This document shows positions 34,792 through 43,252 of a DNA stretch of 64,000 bases, piece after piece; the first letter of the stretch is position 1; every line of letters starts with the position of its first letter. Position numbers and translations under genes: made by a program. Under the pieces are notes generated by a model. The model was not told the DNA's origin, made no database searches, and saw only the letters and a list, made by a program, of their open reading frames with translations. The DNA is from Oligoflexia bacterium (lineage in GTDB: Bacteria > Bdellovibrionota_B > Oligoflexia > Oligoflexales > JAGOVF01): contig JAUILP010000001.1 of NCBI GenBank assembly GCA_030432875.1, positions 103,086-167,085 of the forward strand. Direction: 5' to 3'.

Positions 34792-35591
34792 ATGCCAAAC
34801 CAATCAATATTAAGACAGTATAATACGCTTGGCTTAGACTTTCCGACGCTTTTGGATAGATCTTCAATAAATTGTGTTAGCTCTCTCTTTATTCTTTTCG
34901 CATCTGCTGAAGAAATGCACATCGGGGCGGTGAAGAAAAGGTTGGAATTATCTGCTAGCTCCATTTTATTAAACCCTTTGAGGCGCCATTGAATTTGACG
35001 CCACCTTATATGATGGGAAGTCGCCTCTAAGTGAAAGCGTTGGGTAGTTGGTAATATGCGTCCAGCTTGCATAATGACAAAACCATTTTCAGAGAGAAAG
35101 TCACAAATATCACTGGCTTTCGCAATGCTTAGTTTAAAATATTTTGCTAAGGCATCTAGGGTCTGGAGGTCTTTTATTCCTACCGCGATTCTAAACGCGG
35201 CGTAGAGGCAGTCGGAGTAGTAGCGATTTTTGACACTCTCACTTAGGTGTATATTTTGGGGTAAGCGGTGCTGCAATTGCTGCATTTGTAGCTGATAGCC
35301 TTCCAGTTCTTTTTGATAGTATTGGGCGAGTTTATAGGATCCTGCGCGAGCCTTACGTAGCATCAGTAGAAAAAACTGAGATTCCTTCGGTGTTAACGCT
35401 AGGTATTCTGTTAAATCAAGGCCCTGTTCTTCTGTTAAATTTCGTTCTCCTTTAAAAACTAAACTGATTGCAACAGTACTCATGTTTAAGGCTAGAGCTA
35501 TTTTCCGAAATTGCCCGTAGCCTTTTTTAGGCATCGAATCAATTTTTTTTTTAACAAATTCTTTATAATCGTCGAAGTCAAAAATATTCAT
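34788..35591 (-). CDS. TIGR02147-family regulator
   Basis: The 267-residue protein matches the TIGR02147 family. MNIFDFDDYKEFVKKKID opens a helix-turn-helix-like N-terminus (RKIALALNMSTVAISLVFKGERNLT), then the family phrase YLALTPKESQFFLLMLR. The C-terminal half carries a winged-helix-like segment (AKYFKLSIAKASDICDFLSENGFV) and ends with a strand giving SVLYCLNIDWFGI. The family is thought to be transcriptional regulators; ligands are unknown. Its start overlaps the lipoprotein gene by 4 bp (translational coupling), so regulator and surface proteins are made together. It is the best candidate to bind the shared operator. Confidence 0.85.
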   Translation of the reverse strand: MNIFDFDDYKEFVKKKIDSMPKKGYGQFRKIALALNMSTVAISLVFKGERNLTEEQGLDLTEYLALTPKESQFFLLMLRKARAGSYKLAQYYQKELEGYQLQMQQLQHRLPQNIHLSESVKNRYYSDCLYAAFRIAVGIKDLQTLDALAKYFKLSIAKASDICDFLSENGFVIMQAGRILPTTQRFHLEATSHHIRWRQIQWRLKGFNKMELADNSNLFFTAPMCISSADAKRIKRELTQFIEDLSKSVGKSKPSVLYCLNIDWFGI

Positions 35592-37252
35592 TTAACAGAG
35601 TTCTCATTGATTTTTTCATCGAGTTCACAATGAACATAGATTTTATCTTTTAGCTCCCCTTGTGGCTCTAAGGAGCTGTCCTTAATTAAATAGGTAAACG
35701 ATGGATGAAGGGAGTCAATTAACAGTATCTGATATTGGTGTTCACCTGTTTTAAATGTGTACTCATCCTGACGCATTCCAATTAATGTCCGCGAAGCAGT
35801 GGGAGAATTAGCATTAACTTCAACTGAGAGGAGAGTAAGGGGCGAAGGATATTGTCGTTCTATTTCTTCGAGCTTAATCTCAATTTCACCAAGTTTTAAA
35901 AATTTCGGCTTATTTTCTAACACTATGTCGGCTGCAATCTCCATGAAACCATCTTTTCCTCCCAAATGAAGGAGCTGGCAGCTAGTCATTTTTCTGGTTG
36001 CAGAATTTATTTTTAGCCGAATGAAACTATTGGAGAAGTTTTTAGACTCTAGAAAAGTGATGTAAGAAGATTTTTTCATTGAATAAATACTATTAGGCAT
36101 TTCTTGCTCTCCCAATAATTGTAGCACCTGATCCTTCAGGAGCCGTAATCGTAGGTATATGCTCGGCAAATCTTGTAATACTAATTGGTATTCATGAGGC
36201 GTTAAAGAACGTCGGTTTATTCCTGCACTAAAACACTCTATGAAATTGAAAATTTTTAACTGATTAAGGGTATGGTTAAGAGAAGAAGGAAAGAAGAGCG
36301 AGTCACCAAGAATGATTTCCTTATCGTGGATTACTTCAGGAACTTTTAATAATAGTGGACACAATGTCTGACGAGATGTCGACCAATCGGCTAAACTTAA
36401 AAATAATTCATTGATCATGACATCAGGCTGTTGATATAGCTGAACCAAAGTATTCTTTATGTTATCGTCAAGAATAAATATCTTCTGTTCGATAAACATA
36501 TTTTGCACAGACTGTGATGTAGGTTCATCATAATCGTAAAAGTGGGCGATTTCATGTACGACAAGGCTAAGGAGTTGTTTAGGTAAACTTTCAGCTGAAA
36601 GTTGCGTCAGTCGTTGTAGGCTTAAACAAATATGACCTTGTTGATTAATACTGGCGGTTTTTTCAGCTAAACCGTCTAAACAGGCAGAGCTTTGCAGGTG
36701 AAAGCTTAGTTGTTCACTGGATAAAACGGTAAAAATATTCTCGTACCGATATTTATTGCCATAAATGAAGGCTTGAAGAACCTTAAAGTTGCCGGGATAT
36801 ATAGGGCCGATAGCTTTGGGATTATGAGGATCAAGGTCATTTAGTAGAACATCAAGCCGACGAAATATTTTCAACAGCTCCTCTGGTAAGGTAGCCATCA
36901 AAATACGCACTTGCTCTTCTGTGGCAAAAATAGGATCGCCACCTGATGTGTCGATCATTCCGCCCCCCTCGTTATTCTCGGTATTCTTACTTGCTATAGT
37001 CAGGTTTGTATTGCCTCGAGTATGACCAGGTAATGAAAAAAGGTCTGACGCCTCATCTGGGCCCTCAGAAATGGGGGTTGGAACAATGATTAAGTTATCG
37101 TTTTGGGATGGTGTATGAGGACTCTTATTTTCATTATAAACTGTGGGCGGTGGCTGTCGTTGTGGTCTCAGACAAGAACATGCTAACAGCATCATTAATC
37201 CCGCGAGAAAATAATTAACCCATTTAGAGTGCGAGCATTTTTTTGAGGTCAC
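35588..37252 (-). CDS. Lipoprotein with HEIAH zinc-protease motif
   Basis: About 554 residues from the GTG at 37252; the track ORF starts further inside the vWA gene. The signal is NYFLAGLMMLLACSC, with a lipobox ending LLAC or LACSC. A Pro/Asn/Thr-rich linker follows to about residue 100. LLSLVVHEIAHFYDYDEP in the middle is a classic HExxH site with an Asp-rich tail. The rest, with YQLVLQDLPSIYLRLRLL, a TSCQLLHLGGKDG segment and beta-rich C-terminus, is not recognised. It overlaps the vWA gene by 29 bp and the regulator by 4 bp, so the three form one operon. It may process a surface partner. Confidence 0.72.
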   Translation of the reverse strand: MTSKKCSHSKWVNYFLAGLMMLLACSCLRPQRQPPPTVYNENKSPHTPSQNDNLIIVPTPISEGPDEASDLFSLPGHTRGNTNLTIASKNTENNEGGGMIDTSGGDPIFATEEQVRILMATLPEELLKIFRRLDVLLNDLDPHNPKAIGPIYPGNFKVLQAFIYGNKYRYENIFTVLSSEQLSFHLQSSACLDGLAEKTASINQQGHICLSLQRLTQLSAESLPKQLLSLVVHEIAHFYDYDEPTSQSVQNMFIEQKIFILDDNIKNTLVQLYQQPDVMINELFLSLADWSTSRQTLCPLLLKVPEVIHDKEIILGDSLFFPSSLNHTLNQLKIFNFIECFSAGINRRSLTPHEYQLVLQDLPSIYLRLRLLKDQVLQLLGEQEMPNSIYSMKKSSYITFLESKNFSNSFIRLKINSATRKMTSCQLLHLGGKDGFMEIAADIVLENKPKFLKLGEIEIKLEEIERQYPSPLTLLSVEVNANSPTASRTLIGMRQDEYTFKTGEHQYQILLIDSLHPSFTYLIKDSSLEPQGELKDKIYVHCELDEKINENSVK

Positions 37253-37949
37253 GTGAAATCTCGAGTGTTGAATTTGTGTAATCATCTTGGCAGACGCCGT
37301 ACCATTTCCCCTGGGTCTGCTCAATAAAATCTATAATTACGTCACTAGCCGAAGCAAAAGGGGGGCAGTTAACGTCGGTATGAGCAACAAAGCCGTAGGC
37401 ACGCACATCTTTGCCAATTCTGTATTGATAAAACTCAAGCAATTTTATCAAGCTTGCCGCAGTAGTTTGAGAATCGGTATATTCATCTTCATCGGTAATA
37501 TATATTATCGCCATTTTCGATGCTTCACAATTGCCTGAAGAAGGTTTGCAAAGTTTTTCATCTAACATATCATCCAGAAGCATTTGCGTTTTTTTTAGGC
37601 CTCTTTCATAGGCGTCTCCGACTTTATTTTGTAGGACATTTTGTTCAAATGAGGTGTCATAATTAGAGGAAGCCGCTGAAATTCGTGGGCTAGATAGATC
37701 TTTGGTATCTGTCGTAATAAAGGTGATGTGCCAATCACTTTTGCCAATGTAAGCCAGTAGCGGATGGAGCTGCGAAGCCATGTTTAGTTGCCACTTACCC
37801 ATCGAATAGGAATTATCCACTACTATAACGATTTCAAGGCTATTACGGGGCAGAAGATTTTCGATTCCTGTTTGGCTCATAGCTAGATTGAAAGTCGCAA
37901 GAGGCAAAAAACCGCATAAAGTTAACTGTGCTAATAATCGACGGGACAT
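37224..37949 (-). CDS. Exported von Willebrand factor A-domain protein
   Basis: About 241 residues from ATG 37949, with AAAGG 8 nt upstream. The N-terminus MSRRLLAQLTLCGFLPLAT fits a signal peptide, with a twin Arg that could also be a Tat signal. The vWA domain begins IVIVVDNSYSMGKW, giving an intact MIDAS DxSxS. Further metal-site elements are the Thr region (ITFITTDTKD) and IIYITDEDEYTDS. vWA domains bind proteins through the metal ion. It is the first gene of the operon whose promoter carries TTGACA and TATAAC. Confidence 0.85.
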   Translation of the reverse strand: MSRRLLAQLTLCGFLPLATFNLAMSQTGIENLLPRNSLEIVIVVDNSYSMGKWQLNMASQLHPLLAYIGKSDWHITFITTDTKDLSSPRISAASSNYDTSFEQNVLQNKVGDAYERGLKKTQMLLDDMLDEKLCKPSSGNCEASKMAIIYITDEDEYTDSQTTAASLIKLLEFYQYRIGKDVRAYGFVAHTDVNCPPFASASDVIIDFIEQTQGKWYGVCQDDYTNSTLEISRDLKKMLAL

Positions 37950-37974
37950 TGTAGTGACCTTTCTTCTTTGGGGG

Positions 37975-38004
37975 GTTATATCCAATATTCGCAGGATATG
38001 TCAA
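37975..38004 (-). promoter_or_regulatory. Sigma70-like promoter of the vWA operon
   Basis: On the minus strand TTGACA (38004-37999) is followed by an 18-bp spacer and TATAAC (37980-37975). A start near 37968 would give a 19-nt leader before the ATG at 37949. Confidence 0.6.
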
Positions 38005-38184: not shown

Positions 38185-38988
38185 CTAGCAAATAAAATCA
38201 GGTGTGTTGCTTAAGTCAACATCTTCTATCGCATAAAAACCAGGTTTTTGCTGTATAAGCCAAGAGCATAAGGTCAGGGCCCCGCGGGCAAAGAGTGTGC
38301 GAGAATAGGCGCGGTGCGTAATAATGATTTCTTCTTCTTCTCCCATCAGGCGTAACGTATGCTCTCCAAAAACACCCCCCCCACGGAGGGCGTGCATGGG
38401 TTTTTGAGGGACCGGGATCTTTTTCTTTTCGCCAGCTTTAACTAAGGCCTCTTGTAAAATAAGAGCTGTTCCACTGGGGGCATCTTTTTTTAGTCTGTGA
38501 TGTGTTTCGATGATTTCGTAATCAAAACCCTGTTTTATGAGGGCTAAGGCTAAAGGAATGCCAAGACTTAGCATGAGAGAAATTCCTTGTGAAGTATTTG
38601 CTGCTACCAAAACTCGGTGATTTTCCTTGGCGCTAAAATCACGCCAGGCTTTTATGGCGCTTTTGTCTAAGCCAGTTGTTGCGATGAGAATTGTTTTTTC
38701 TTCTATTGAGCGAGAAGCCAGAGCTGACAACAGTTGGGCGTTGCCGACTGGCAAACTCACGTCAATAATGATCTCAGATTCAAGTAATTTTTCGCCAAAA
38801 GCAATTTCATTGAAGGGCGTTTTTTCAGCCAGATGTTCCTTGCCGGTAAATAAAAACCGAGAAGAGTTTCCGCCGAGCACAGAAATTTTTGATGTCCAGG
38901 CTGGGTCTTTAAGGAGCTCCACGATATTTTGGCCTAAACGCCCAGTAAAGCCACTTATCCAGAGTTTTTGGGGTTTTGTATTTTTCAT
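38185..38988 (-). CDS. dapB: 4-hydroxy-tetrahydrodipicolinate reductase
   Basis: The 267-residue enzyme reduces the DapA product with NAD(P)H in lysine and diaminopimelate synthesis. The nucleotide-binding region is WISGFTGRLGQNIVE, followed by IIDVSLPV. The catalytic segment ETHHRLKKDAPSGTAL holds the His pair, the Lys and the substrate loop, all intact. RGGGVFGEHTLRLMG and ITHRAYSRTLFARGAL are family features. It follows dapA after 32 bp and ends the lysine block. Diaminopimelate also feeds the murein made and recycled by ddl, ldcA and mpl nearby. Confidence 0.95.
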   Translation of the reverse strand: MKNTKPQKLWISGFTGRLGQNIVELLKDPAWTSKISVLGGNSSRFLFTGKEHLAEKTPFNEIAFGEKLLESEIIIDVSLPVGNAQLLSALASRSIEEKTILIATTGLDKSAIKAWRDFSAKENHRVLVAANTSQGISLMLSLGIPLALALIKQGFDYEIIETHHRLKKDAPSGTALILQEALVKAGEKKKIPVPQKPMHALRGGGVFGEHTLRLMGEEEEIIITHRAYSRTLFARGALTLCSWLIQQKPGFYAIEDVDLSNTPDFIC

Positions 38989-39020: not shown

Positions 39021-39983
39021 TTAAACATTGGAGGAAATTTCAGTATCGTCGCTAAAATTATGCCTGGAACTTCTTTGCTGCATGGCCGTAACTTTCAAAA
39101 GTTCCTCAGTGTCTTGCAAAATTTTTAAGAGCTTTGGGGCTGACTCAGCAGAAACCTGGCATAATGGAAGCCTAAGATTGGCCTCACATAGCTTTAGTAA
39201 TGACAGTAAAAACTTAATGGGTCCCGGATTAGACTCGATAAACATCGCCTCAGCCATGGGCAGAAGTGTTTGGTGATATTTTTGTACAACGTCAATATTC
39301 TGAGAGCACCAAGCCTTATGGGCAGAGACATATTCGCCAGGATAAAAATTCGATAAGACACTGATAAGTCCATGGCAGCCTGCAATTAGGCTAGGAAAAT
39401 ATAGGAGATCATCACCTGACAAGATTTGTGCTTTGGTTAATCGAGTTAAGTGAGAAATATAATTTACTTCCCCACTCGCTTCCTTTATCGCCTCAAGGCC
39501 GAGCTCATTAATGATTTGAGCCAAATCGTGTACAGGAAGTTTTTGGCCGGTTCGTGACGGAACATGATAAAGACAAATAGGGACGGAAACTGCTTTTTTG
39601 ATACTTTCAAAATGTTTTAAATGTCCTTCCTTACTGGGTTTATTGTAAGGGGGGGTGACGATTAAGAGAGAATCCGCTCCTGCATCACAAGATAATTTAG
39701 AAAGCTCAATTGATTGCTGGGTATTGCTTGACCCGCTACCAGCCATAATGGCCATCGTGCTTCCCACTAAAGCACGGGCTTTTTTAATGAGGCTTAGTTT
39801 TTCTTGGACGCTGAGTGTTGGCGATTCTCCGGTCGTGCCTGCTATAACGATGCCATCGATTCCGGCATCGCGCTGCCGGAGCACTAGCCGTTCAAAGGCA
39901 GGCATATCAAGGGAAAAATCCTCATTAAAGGGGGTGACAATCGCGGTCCAAATTCCTTGAATTTTTGCTGCGTGATGTTTCAT
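39021..39983 (-). CDS. dapA: 4-hydroxy-tetrahydrodipicolinate synthase
   Basis: The 320-residue aldolase condenses pyruvate with aspartate semialdehyde. The sequence has GIWTAIVTPFN, GTTGESPTLSVQE (substrate pocket), YNKPSKEGHLKHFE and LYHVPSRTGQKL, with the catalytic Tyr in LYHVPSRT. The Schiff-base Lys is in LEAIKEASGEV. AGGA 7 nt upstream of the ATG. About 25 C-terminal residues (MQQRSSRHNFSDDTEISSNV) extend beyond the usual end and are polar and unstructured-looking. It is cotranscribed with dapB. Confidence 0.95.
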   Translation of the reverse strand: MKHHAAKIQGIWTAIVTPFNEDFSLDMPAFERLVLRQRDAGIDGIVIAGTTGESPTLSVQEKLSLIKKARALVGSTMAIMAGSGSSNTQQSIELSKLSCDAGADSLLIVTPPYNKPSKEGHLKHFESIKKAVSVPICLYHVPSRTGQKLPVHDLAQIINELGLEAIKEASGEVNYISHLTRLTKAQILSGDDLLYFPSLIAGCHGLISVLSNFYPGEYVSAHKAWCSQNIDVVQKYHQTLLPMAEAMFIESNPGPIKFLLSLLKLCEANLRLPLCQVSAESAPKLLKILQDTEELLKVTAMQQRSSRHNFSDDTEISSNV

Positions 39984-40148: not shown

Positions 40149-40367
40149 TTAAGCGGTTTTAGGGGCGTCGGGAAGCTTTTTTTCTGGAGTAGCAGGAATT
40201 TCCCTCTCAGGGCGTGGTATCCAATCTGGTTCTTCAAAGGGCAAATAAGGGCGAAGTTCGGGGTGCTTACTAAAGGGAGCTGTTTTGAGGCCACAGCTTG
40301 CAAGGCATAGGAGACCTATACTGGATAGGATAAAGGCTAGCTGTTTGGAACAAAAAAATTTATGCAT
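40149..40367 (-). CDS. LptM/LppL-like small lipoprotein
   Basis: About 72 residues from ATG 40367 (the track extends 9 more). The lipobox is LLCLASCGLK, and the mature start CGLKTAPFSKHPELRP is close to the CGxKGPL pattern of LptM (YifL/LppL), a small lipoprotein that assists LptD oxidation in Enterobacteria. Its position next to dap genes and an argH-like gene matches the common argH-lppL-lysA-dapF arrangement. The rest is Pro/Glu-rich. The function is inferred from these features. Confidence 0.6.
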   Translation of the reverse strand: MHKFFCSKQLAFILSSIGLLCLASCGLKTAPFSKHPELRPYLPFEEPDWIPRPEREIPATPEKKLPDAPKTA

Positions 40368-40579
40368 AAACATAAAAAACCGAAGGGTAAACACTTTGAA
40401 ACATTATTTTGTGGGCAATTCGTCGCCCTAAAAACCCTGTCATATACCGGCTAATCATAGAAGTCCCGTGCGCACCTAAAATATAACACCCGCTCAGTCG
40501 TTACAAAAAGGCAACATTCTGCTGATGTCAATTTTCCTGGCTTTATGACAAACAAGGACAACGGTATCCTGTCATAAAT

Positions 40580-41836
40580 TTAGGGTTTTGGATAGGCCTG
40601 CGCAAATTTATCCATAAGTTTTTTAATGATTTCTAGGTTCTTGGCTTTCTTCGAAGTATATAAGGCGTTAATGGTATCGACTTTACCATAATCTGATAAT
40701 GTTCTTAGGCTTTCTGCACTAAGATGAGGGCTGATTTTGACAAGCTCTCCCGAAATAAGAGCATCTGGGGTGATGTTATTGACCTGGCAATAATTTTCAA
40801 CCGCGTTTGCCGCATGCTGCGCTTTTTTTATACTGATTTGTTTATTAAACATCTGCATTGCGACTCGTCTTTTTAAAGATTCGGGAAGTTTATTTTGTGG
40901 CGAGGGCTGTTTAAACTGACTAAATTGTCGGCACAAGGATTTCATATTTTCTTTTATATGAGTCGTGACATCGATGAGGGTAAATAAAATGATATTGTAG
41001 TGTAGACGCTTTTGCTCCAAGGCATTTAGATCGCGACTAAACATATCCCGAACACCAATGAGTCTATGAACCTCGCTGTGGGCAAGCTGCAATAGTACTT
41101 CTATTTCTGCTAAGTGCTGTGGCGTAGCGGTGAGGTTGCGACCGATCTGGTGGAGCATTTCAGCCAGTGATTCGCCAAGAATTGTGAAAACAGAAAAAAT
41201 ATCTAGTCGGCTTAACGTGGCGCGTTCATTTGCTTCTTCAAGGCTAACTAATTGAGAAAATCCCAGCGACCGGGAAACTTCCTTATCAAATATTTCATCG
41301 TCTTCAGAGTGTATGACCATTTGATGCCAGGTAAAACATTCGGTATTTTTAGCGCATTCTTCCAGGCGGTCATGAAGAGCAGCAAGCCCTTGGGCTTTAC
41401 CGAGTAAAAAATCAGAAAGTAGGGTGCGGTTCTCACAGGACTCATTGTGATAAATATAAAAAAACCTGTTGAAGTGCAGACGCGAAGTTTCTAGTAGAGA
41501 TGCGCTCATCTCAGCAAATACCGCGGCAAGTTCTCTAATCAAGGGTCTTAAGCTATAGCAGGTCATATTATTGTGTAAGCCCAGGGAACCGTATCTGGTT
41601 TGAAGTAAGGCAATGAGATCATTTTGCTTTTCAAGTAGGTAGTGGCTTAAAAAGGTTGGAGACCGAGCATTCATAAGGTTGAAGGAGTTTAATTCTAGGC
41701 GCAAGTCATCGCTATTTTTTTGGGTAATTTGCCCTGTAGACATCAAGTGATCTGCAAAAGCGAGTAGCATTTCACTCGTTTTTTGGTTGTCATATTTAAT
41801 GAGATTTTCGTACGAATGGGCATTTGAAAAAAGCAT
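40580..41836 (-). CDS. Argininosuccinate-lyase-like protein without catalytic motifs
   Basis: The 418-residue protein follows the argininosuccinate lyase fold along most of its length. EIFDKEVSRSLGF and LAEMLHQIGRNL match the ArgH central helices. The C-terminal KKAQHAANAVENYCQ, LKK-type and NALYTSKKAKNLEI segments match the ArgH tail. The three signature sites are gone: LHNNMTCYSLRP where ArgH has LHTGRSRNDQ, no GYTHLQ-like segment, and LLQLAHSEVHRL instead of the GSSxMPQKKNP loop with the catalytic Ser. It sits upstream of an LppL-like gene and dapA, the position normally taken by argH. It is probably a catalytically dead derivative with a new role. Confidence 0.6.
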   Translation of the reverse strand: MLFSNAHSYENLIKYDNQKTSEMLLAFADHLMSTGQITQKNSDDLRLELNSFNLMNARSPTFLSHYLLEKQNDLIALLQTRYGSLGLHNNMTCYSLRPLIRELAAVFAEMSASLLETSRLHFNRFFYIYHNESCENRTLLSDFLLGKAQGLAALHDRLEECAKNTECFTWHQMVIHSEDDEIFDKEVSRSLGFSQLVSLEEANERATLSRLDIFSVFTILGESLAEMLHQIGRNLTATPQHLAEIEVLLQLAHSEVHRLIGVRDMFSRDLNALEQKRLHYNIILFTLIDVTTHIKENMKSLCRQFSQFKQPSPQNKLPESLKRRVAMQMFNKQISIKKAQHAANAVENYCQVNNITPDALISGELVKISPHLSAESLRTLSDYGKVDTINALYTSKKAKNLEIIKKLMDKFAQAYPKP

Positions 41837-42130: not shown

Positions 42131-43252
42131 CTAGTTGCTTTTAGTCAGCAGTTTTTCCGTGGCATCCATAACCTCTTCGACACTCACTTGGCGGAAGCAT
42201 TTAAGAGGCTTATCGCAAGATTTTTGCCAGCAGGGAGAGCAGGCGACTTTTGCTAAAATTTTAATGCCATTGTCATATAAATCAACTTCTTGGGCACAGC
42301 TTACGCCAAACCAGGCAATCACCGGCTTTTTTAAGGCAATGGCAATATGCATTCCCAAAGAACATCCAGAAAACACGAGGTCTGCCGCAGCTATCCATTG
42401 CACCCCTGAGCGCAGTCCTTGATCTGTTGGGGTATTGATAACGCCATCATCATCGAGAAAGGCAGATTTAATTTCGTTTTGCCTTTGCTGATCTTCTTTG
42501 CCTCCAAGTAAGGCCACGCAGTGGTTCGGGAATTTCGCGCGCCATGCTGAGACTAGGTTGATGGCATCAGGCACTTCAAGTTTTTTGTAAGGAAATAAAA
42601 CGGAACAGCCGGTATTATATCCAATTATTCCTTGAGTATTACCAATAAGCGCTTTTCTACGCGACTCTACCTCCTCTTTCTCTGAGGGGGTGAGTTCCAA
42701 AATATATGGGTCCCTCTGCCAAGTTAGGGACATGGATTCCGTAATTTGTTGGGTCTCTGGTTTTTGATTTTGAAAAAACTTCATGTCATTGTTTAGGCCC
42801 AACTCATATTGGTAGTCAGCTTCTGGATTGAGTGGCTTTATTACGCCCGTTGGCGTTAGTCCAAACCCAAATTTTTTAGAAGCCTTGCAGGTCTCAGCCA
42901 AAGCCCCCGCGGCCAGGGACTTATCAACAGCATAAAGGAGATCAAACTCGAGATATTGCAGTGTGGCAACCTCTTCACTAGAATAGAGGATTAAGCGGTC
43001 AATAAGGGGGTTGTTTATTAGTAAAGCTTTGGTACTTGGCATGGTGACCCATGTAATGTGGCTCTGAGGGTATTTTCTTTTTAAGGCGGGTAAAAGACAG
43101 GTACTTCGGAGGACGGCTCCCATGGCTTCTAGGCTAATAATTAAAATGCGCTCTTTTACCGGGTCATGGTGGGGGCAGCTAAGGCAGCTTGGGAGTTTAT
43201 AGCGGCAGGGTTTATAACCCGTAAACAAGCGGCAATCAAACTTATACTTCAT
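42131..43252 (-). CDS. Glycosyltransferase family 9 protein with N-terminal Cys cluster
   Basis: The 373-residue protein has the GT9 (heptosyltransferase) layout: ILIISLEAMGAVLRSTCLLPALKRKYP at the first Rossmann domain and VFSGCSLGMHIAIALKKPVIAWFG at the sugar-nucleotide domain. It is preceded by a Cys-rich segment (CRLFTGYKPC...CLSCPHHDP) typical of a GT9 subgroup, and ends with another Cys set (CSPCWQKSC...CF). A metal or Fe-S cluster is possible but unproven. It probably builds LPS core or another surface glycan. It stands alone and is divergent to ldcA, 60 bp apart. Confidence 0.82.
   Translation of the reverse strand: MKYKFDCRLFTGYKPCRYKLPSCLSCPHHDPVKERILIISLEAMGAVLRSTCLLPALKRKYPQSHITWVTMPSTKALLINNPLIDRLILYSSEEVATLQYLEFDLLYAVDKSLAAGALAETCKASKKFGFGLTPTGVIKPLNPEADYQYELGLNNDMKFFQNQKPETQQITESMSLTWQRDPYILELTPSEKEEVESRRKALIGNTQGIIGYNTGCSVLFPYKKLEVPDAINLVSAWRAKFPNHCVALLGGKEDQQRQNEIKSAFLDDDGVINTPTDQGLRSGVQWIAAADLVFSGCSLGMHIAIALKKPVIAWFGVSCAQEVDLYDNGIKILAKVACSPCWQKSCDKPLKCFRQVSVEEVMDATEKLLTKSN

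Follow-up and report, generated by a model that had tools for sequence, protein, structure and literature searches.

A gene in the window (the whole analysed stretch of DNA, 64,000 nt) encodes a true descendant of argininosuccinate lyase (ArgH) that has lost its active site and is maintained by selection; we regard this as almost certain. That it descends from argH in place and was retained as a non-catalytic scaffold or regulator tied to a lipoprotein is, taken as a whole, a reasonably probable reading, and its last element, the scaffold or regulator tied to the lipoprotein, is a tentative one. Most relatives carry the dead ArgH joined to a small lipoprotein of the membrane, so the cell envelope seems to have taken over an old enzyme of metabolism for a non-catalytic purpose. 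Together with its relatives, the protein forms a pseudoenzyme family that is new and has an unusual fusion; searches of open-access literature found no bacterial ArgH pseudoenzyme of this kind. The features are listed in Table 1.

Table 1. Positions in the window of the pseudo-ArgH gene, its altered motifs and its neighbours.
Feature	Position	Strand	Description and evidence
ArgH-derived pseudoenzyme	40580..41836	-	418 aa, all-helical; ORF, HHalign, AF2 model and Foldseek
ArgH C-terminal tail (ASL_C2-like)	40595..40882	-	residues 319-414; PDB profile matches to ASL tail
Residues 81-90 (RYGSLGLHNN), at ArgH VGDLGKRLHTGRSRNDQ	41567..41596	-	substrate-binding motif deleted
Residues 128-133 (IYHNES), aligned to ArgH GYTHMQ	41438..41455	-	ArgH alignment
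Residues 234-246, deletion site of catalytic-serine loop GSSxMPQKKNP	41099..41137	-	ArgH alignment
LptM/LppL-like lipoprotein	40149..40394	-	81 aa from GTG; lipobox LASC|G (...LLCLASC|GLKTAP), Cys codon 34
Perfect 9-bp inverted repeat TTTATGACA..TGTCATAAA	40542..40578	.	in 185-nt gap
dapA	39021..39983	-	next gene downstream, conserved neighbour; TIGR00674 over cut-off, synteny
dapB	38185..38988	-	conserved neighbour; TIGR00036 over cut-off, synteny
Glycosyltransferase family 9 (heptosyltransferase-like)	42131..43252	-	upstream neighbour; PF01075

Descent from argininosuccinate lyase and loss of the active site

Profiles were required for the comparison with ArgH because searches with the single pseudo-ArgH sequence gave no useful match. 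The 418-aa ORF stayed below the cut-offs of TIGR00838 and PF00206, the ArgH models of Pfam and NCBIfam did not match it even at E ≤ 10, and no library recognised pseudo-ArgH above its cut-off. BLASTP against the ArgH of the same genome was empty, and scanning the named genome collection with this one protein retrieved no relative. A phmmer search of the PDB returned weak matches only, nearly all to the tail of delta-crystallin. Relatives were found when the named collection was scanned with a profile from a 10-row subset alignment. The A1 profile, which comprises 19 rows, was scanned over 43 Oligoflexales genomes and detected the ArgH-like domain in 35 of them. Homologues within the order shared 21–28% identity, and the window copy had only about 25% identity to its nearest relative. 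The matches opened outside the class were ordinary ArgH (eight loci, 510–650 bits with the argH profile).

The original prediction that ArgH-type helices and the C-terminal tail are kept was supported by HHalign, which aligned the family to the ArgH sequences of the class with an E value of 1.9e-15 over 375 columns, the full ArgH length. The value was still 4.8e-15 when the window sequence was left out. PurB (E 0.16) and FumC (E 0.24) showed no relationship to the family profile and were rejected as sources of the fold, and reversed-profile controls (E 0.35–0.38) led us to reject a chance similarity of helical proteins. The family profile also matched true ArgH in other genomes. In the PDB its only convincing matches were ASL/delta-crystallin (E 1e-8 to 1e-3). 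The best conserved part is the C-terminal tail, which carries GELVKISPHLS. The comparison with Pfam that had been suggested gave a divided answer, with no match for the single sequence and weak matches to ASL_C2 in 4 of the 19 members (best E 0.0084).

Structural modelling, proposed as another check, agreed with the profile alignments. The AlphaFold models were built with just 11 sequences, and the model of the window protein reached a pLDDT of 83 and a pTM of 0.74. Its 50 best matches in the PDB were exclusively ASL/delta-crystallin chains (best E 1.2e-11), and a model of a fused relative also matched these proteins, with E values down to 4.3e-10. The TM-scores were moderate (about 0.5–0.67), a level to be expected when an eroded homologue is modelled as a single chain. 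According to the models, the pseudoenzyme retains the ArgH fold.

The substrate-binding motif, the segment with the catalytic histidine and the mobile loop had all been reported missing from the window protein, and this proved true for the entire alignment. In 19 of 19 aligned members HTGRSRNDQ (HT(G/A)RSRNDQ) falls into a gap, the mobile loop lacks its GSSxMPQKK portion with the catalytic serine, and the TH of GYTHMQ is replaced, by H-N in the window and mostly by S followed by D or G in the family. The position of the catalytic histidine is not conserved: it is N131 in the window and mostly D, G, V or A in relatives, and His130 is a private residue of the window protein. A search for the pattern GSSxMPxKxNP in the fetched relatives found no occurrence, and TSDRDF of ArgH shows no conservation in the family. 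Polar residues that are invariant in the family include R81, N123, R277, E364 and K397. Judged by its sequence, the protein looks non-catalytic. Together with the profile alignment and the predicted fold, these deletions bear out the proposed descent from argH with loss of the catalytic motifs.

Purifying selection acts strongly on the ArgH-like domain in the relatives. The ratio dN/dS, determined by the Nei-Gojobori method between MAGs of relatives, as the window copy has no close relative, was 0.051 for the pair L124/L125 and 0.089 for L126/L127, both unsaturated. Another pair, with dS near saturation, gave about 0.04. A decaying pseudogene is excluded in the measured lineages by the values of 0.05–0.09. 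The lipoprotein tail was less constrained than the ArgH part, with a dN/dS of 0.2–0.4. The assumption that the gene was kept as a non-catalytic protein is in line with this selection and with the conservation in the order.

A further ArgH-tail protein was found in a sister order of the same class, presumably Silvanigrellales. In the genomes of its family f12 the protein is unfused, has 348–432 aa and is encoded convergently with scpA and near a GT9 gene. The profile of this protein matched the tail of pseudo-ArgH with an E value of 9.4e-9 over 141 columns and true ArgH more weakly (4.2e-5). A Pfam scan of one such protein yielded no match. The sister-order protein probably goes back to the same event as pseudo-ArgH, or else to an independent one. 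The loci L168, L169 and L178–L182 encode such proteins, which evolve fast and carry an ArgH-like tail of the form DEEI..P.I..E.L..AR...R.SD..FPLS next to a convergent scpA.

Gene neighbourhood and lipoprotein fusion

In the Oligoflexales the usual gene order is ldcA - mpl - pal - RNase Y - ymdB - outer-membrane-type protein - [pseudo-ArgH + lipoprotein] - dapA - dapB; RNase Y, ymdB and the outer-membrane-type protein were identified by reading the sequences. Outside the class, two genomes showed the order argH - CGxK/CGxR lipoprotein - lysA - dapF, with dapA as the next gene in one of them, and in a third genome a CGxK-type lipoprotein ORF adjoins argH. Since argH precedes a CGxK-type lipoprotein, lysA and dapF(-dapA) in other phyla, the pseudoenzyme holds the ancestral place of argH, as had been supposed from the window. 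The LppL-like lipoprotein predicted downstream is present and is LptM-like. The predicted lysine genes are dapA and dapB; lysA itself is located elsewhere in this genome, on contig C126.

Some neighbouring genes deserve mention in their own right. A protein of about 520–560 aa that appears exported and outer-membrane-protein-like is encoded directly upstream of pseudo-ArgH in most relatives (L086:9623-11275, minus strand, and equivalents), and it belongs to no Pfam family. On the minus strand of the window, positions 35588-37324 encode a lipoprotein-like protein of 578 aa with the zinc-metallopeptidase-like motif HEIAHFYDYDE, and this ORF overlaps that of a 253-aa von Willebrand A-like exported protein (37224-37985). 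LysA matches lie inside frames of about 850–1000 aa in G002:C148, G012:C213, G013:C75, G018:C35, G007:C76, G004:C1 and G033:C13. These may be LysA fusion proteins; LysA of other members of the order has 420 aa.

The original prediction had missed that the lipoprotein, a separate ORF in the window, is translationally fused to the dead ArgH domain in 33 of the 35 genomes that carry the domain. In the fused frame, the ArgH tail is followed by one hydrophobic segment and then by CG-x-K...RPxIPF. All 33 non-redundant fused proteins have K/R residues ahead of the segment and, like the window lipoprotein, CG after it. The K/R residues and the lipoprotein cysteine suggest that the ArgH domain faces the cytoplasm and the lipoprotein part the periplasm. 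No internal start with a Shine-Dalgarno sequence was consistently present before the lipoprotein part in ten fused genes. The A1 profile found the window lipoprotein as columns 413–473 (E 2.7e-7). The models NF047847 of NCBIfam (E 0.0086) and PF13627 (E 0.086) matched weakly, each in two family members, and neither matched the window lipoprotein ORF.

The two unfused cases are the window genome and G017. In G017 the two genes share an ATGA overlap, and in the window 185 nt separate the ORFs. Neither the gap nor its inverted repeat is a dispersed repeat with another copy in the window, and promoter- or terminator-like sites in the gap were no more frequent than in shuffled sequences. Fission is likelier than primitive separation, as both genomes belong to families that are otherwise fused; repeated fusion is less likely. 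Three further genomes (G003, G004 and G021) have the lipoprotein part without the ArgH domain, which shows that the domain is dispensable there, and five genomes of the order have neither.

Possible role and alternatives

The ancestral argH - lipoprotein - lysA - dap cluster was probably the starting point. The substrate-binding motif, the catalytic histidine and the loop with the catalytic serine would have been lost in the ancestor of the Oligoflexales, perhaps in that of the whole class, and selection for a non-catalytic role would have retained the fold. Most lineages lack a stop codon after the ArgH tail, and the frame runs on into the LptM-like lipoprotein through a single hydrophobic segment that would double as the signal sequence of the latter. 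The likely product is an ArgH-fold scaffold anchored at the inner membrane. It may stay tethered to the lipoprotein, or signal peptidase II may release the lipoprotein, which would then travel to the outer membrane. The window genome makes the two halves separately. Most likely the protein serves maturation of the lipoprotein, or couples it to diaminopimelate and envelope synthesis, as a scaffold or regulator that is probably oligomeric. A bolder version takes the frame as a two-compartment polyprotein throughout the Oligoflexales, which yields an inner-membrane ArgH-fold regulator and, via signal peptidase II, an outer-membrane LptM-like lipoprotein, and so couples the amino-acid/DAP state of the cytoplasm to assembly of the outer membrane (LPS translocon). 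We consider this version improbable.

Several observations weigh against the scaffold or regulator tied to the lipoprotein. The unfused forms of the window and G017 show that a permanent tether is unnecessary, and the order includes the three genomes that dispense with the ArgH domain and the five that lack both parts. The main rival is a pseudoenzyme that regulates DapA and DapB in lysine/diaminopimelate synthesis, the fusion being a by-product of adjacency. The existence of unfused forms fits this explanation, as do the stable dapA-dapB synteny in the order and the ancestry of the cluster with lysA, dapF and dapA. It is nevertheless unlikely, because the fusion partner in 33 of 35 genomes is the lipoprotein and not DapA, the ligand-binding motifs are deleted, and the homologue in the sister order adjoins scpA instead of dapA.

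The three genomes that retain the lipoprotein alone, together with the loss of the catalytic parts, would also agree with a fossil ArgH that is read through as an oversized signal peptide or carrier and whose sole function is to permit synthesis of the lipoprotein. The stronger constraint on the ArgH part (0.05–0.09 versus 0.2–0.4 for the lipoprotein tail) and the persistence of unfused ArgH-like domains in the window and G017 make this quite improbable. A new active site on the ArgH fold that serves some other reaction could account for the invariant polar residues R81, N123, R277, E364 and K397, but all three catalytic segments of the superfamily, including the mobile loop with the catalytic serine, are deleted or unconserved, and we give such an enzyme very little chance. 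A helical look-alike unrelated to ArgH, or a decaying pseudogene, might be suspected from the single sequence without ArgH match in Pfam and NCBIfam; this is already contradicted by the profile and fold matches, the purifying selection and the open frame in 35 genomes, and is extremely unlikely.

The preferred reading, a non-catalytic scaffold or regulator linked to the lipoprotein, has a precedent in delta-1 crystallin of the bird lens, in which the ASL fold was recruited to a structural role. This protein (1i0a, 1hy0) was also the best fold match of our model in the PDB. Delta-crystallin is counted among the enzyme-crystallins (PMC10211241) and assembles as double dimers (PMC4701392). By analogy, it shows that the ASL fold can be reused. 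Delta-crystallins are lens proteins that retain most of the ASL sequence, whereas the bacterial family is far more eroded, is membrane-linked and has a separate origin; it parallels the lens protein and goes much further. Compared with ArgH itself (TIGR00838; fumarase/aspartase superfamily), the family shares the full-length profile alignment, the predicted fold, the tail and the ancestral position, but it lacks the HTGRSRNDQ and GSSxMPQKKNP loops and the catalytic histidine and is mostly fused to a lipoprotein. Here a whole lineage appears to have retained a core biosynthetic enzyme for another job without its chemistry; the case is a natural one, it is bacterial, and its origin can be traced to the place of argH in an ancestral cluster.

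ATP-grasp-ArgH fusions of the PRK02186 type are known, and like ArgH-ArgA fusions they are working enzymes. The ArgH-ArgA fusion occurs in marine gammaproteobacteria (PMC1382215). ArgH is part of a fusion in these cases as well; here a dead ArgH is joined to a lipoprotein. LptM, a small free-standing lipoprotein that acts in LptDE maturation, helps LptD to mature in E. coli and was found to be virtually absent outside Proteobacteria (PMC10567701). The lipoprotein described here resembles LptM (YifL; PF13627, NF047847) and LppL of the lysA-dapF locus in the CGxK start, the Gly after the lipobox Cys and the dap neighbours, although the model matches are weak. It differs in that it usually has an N-terminal ArgH-like domain, and an LptM-like role is putative. 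A cytoplasmic domain joined via a lipoprotein signal raises the question of how large an N-terminal domain lipoprotein processing tolerates.

Arginine synthesis in the order

The suggestion that arginine would have to be imported does not hold for the window genome. The search for a second argH and for argG, which had been advised, found both: a complete argH (449 aa; HYGRSRND and GSSIMPNKRNPD) adjoins argG on contig C95, and this intact pair represents a different ArgH lineage. Eighteen genomes of the order have argG, and the same 18 have argH. Of the 35 genomes with the pseudoenzyme, 18 also have argG/argH, and in 17 no intact argG/argH was detected; a dependence on this pair was rejected. 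These absence calls rest on draft genomes, and in G026 one contig end carries part of an ArgH. Since the pseudoenzyme occurs both with and without argG/argH, it is not in itself a marker of auxotrophy. The domain was absent more often from genomes without argH (8 of 25, versus 0 of 18 with argH; Fisher p 0.013), a difference to which we give no weight because it is confounded by kinship, small genomes and incomplete assemblies. As annotation libraries miss the family, predictions of auxotrophy based solely on the argH locus would be wrong here.

The ArgH proteins of the order did not form one clade in the tree, and the starred branches force at least two changes. ArgH of the window genome, of the GSSIMPNKRNPD type, grouped with those of G001, G033 and G056 as a divergent group on a long supported branch (2.8 changes per column). 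The tree, with its long branches, is read for grouping and not for the direction of transfer. A parsimonious explanation would be loss of function of the ancestral argH and re-acquisition of argGH in some lineages. A loss and later return of arginine synthesis is suggested by the patchy argG-argH pairs and by the presence of more than one ArgH lineage.

We also observed an 891-aa protein (L120:6254-8929, minus strand, in G051; also in G044:C3) with an ATP-grasp-ligase-like N-terminal part and a C-terminal ArgH. GRSRND and GSSMMPQKKNP are intact in its ArgH part, and the genome also has a separate normal ArgH.
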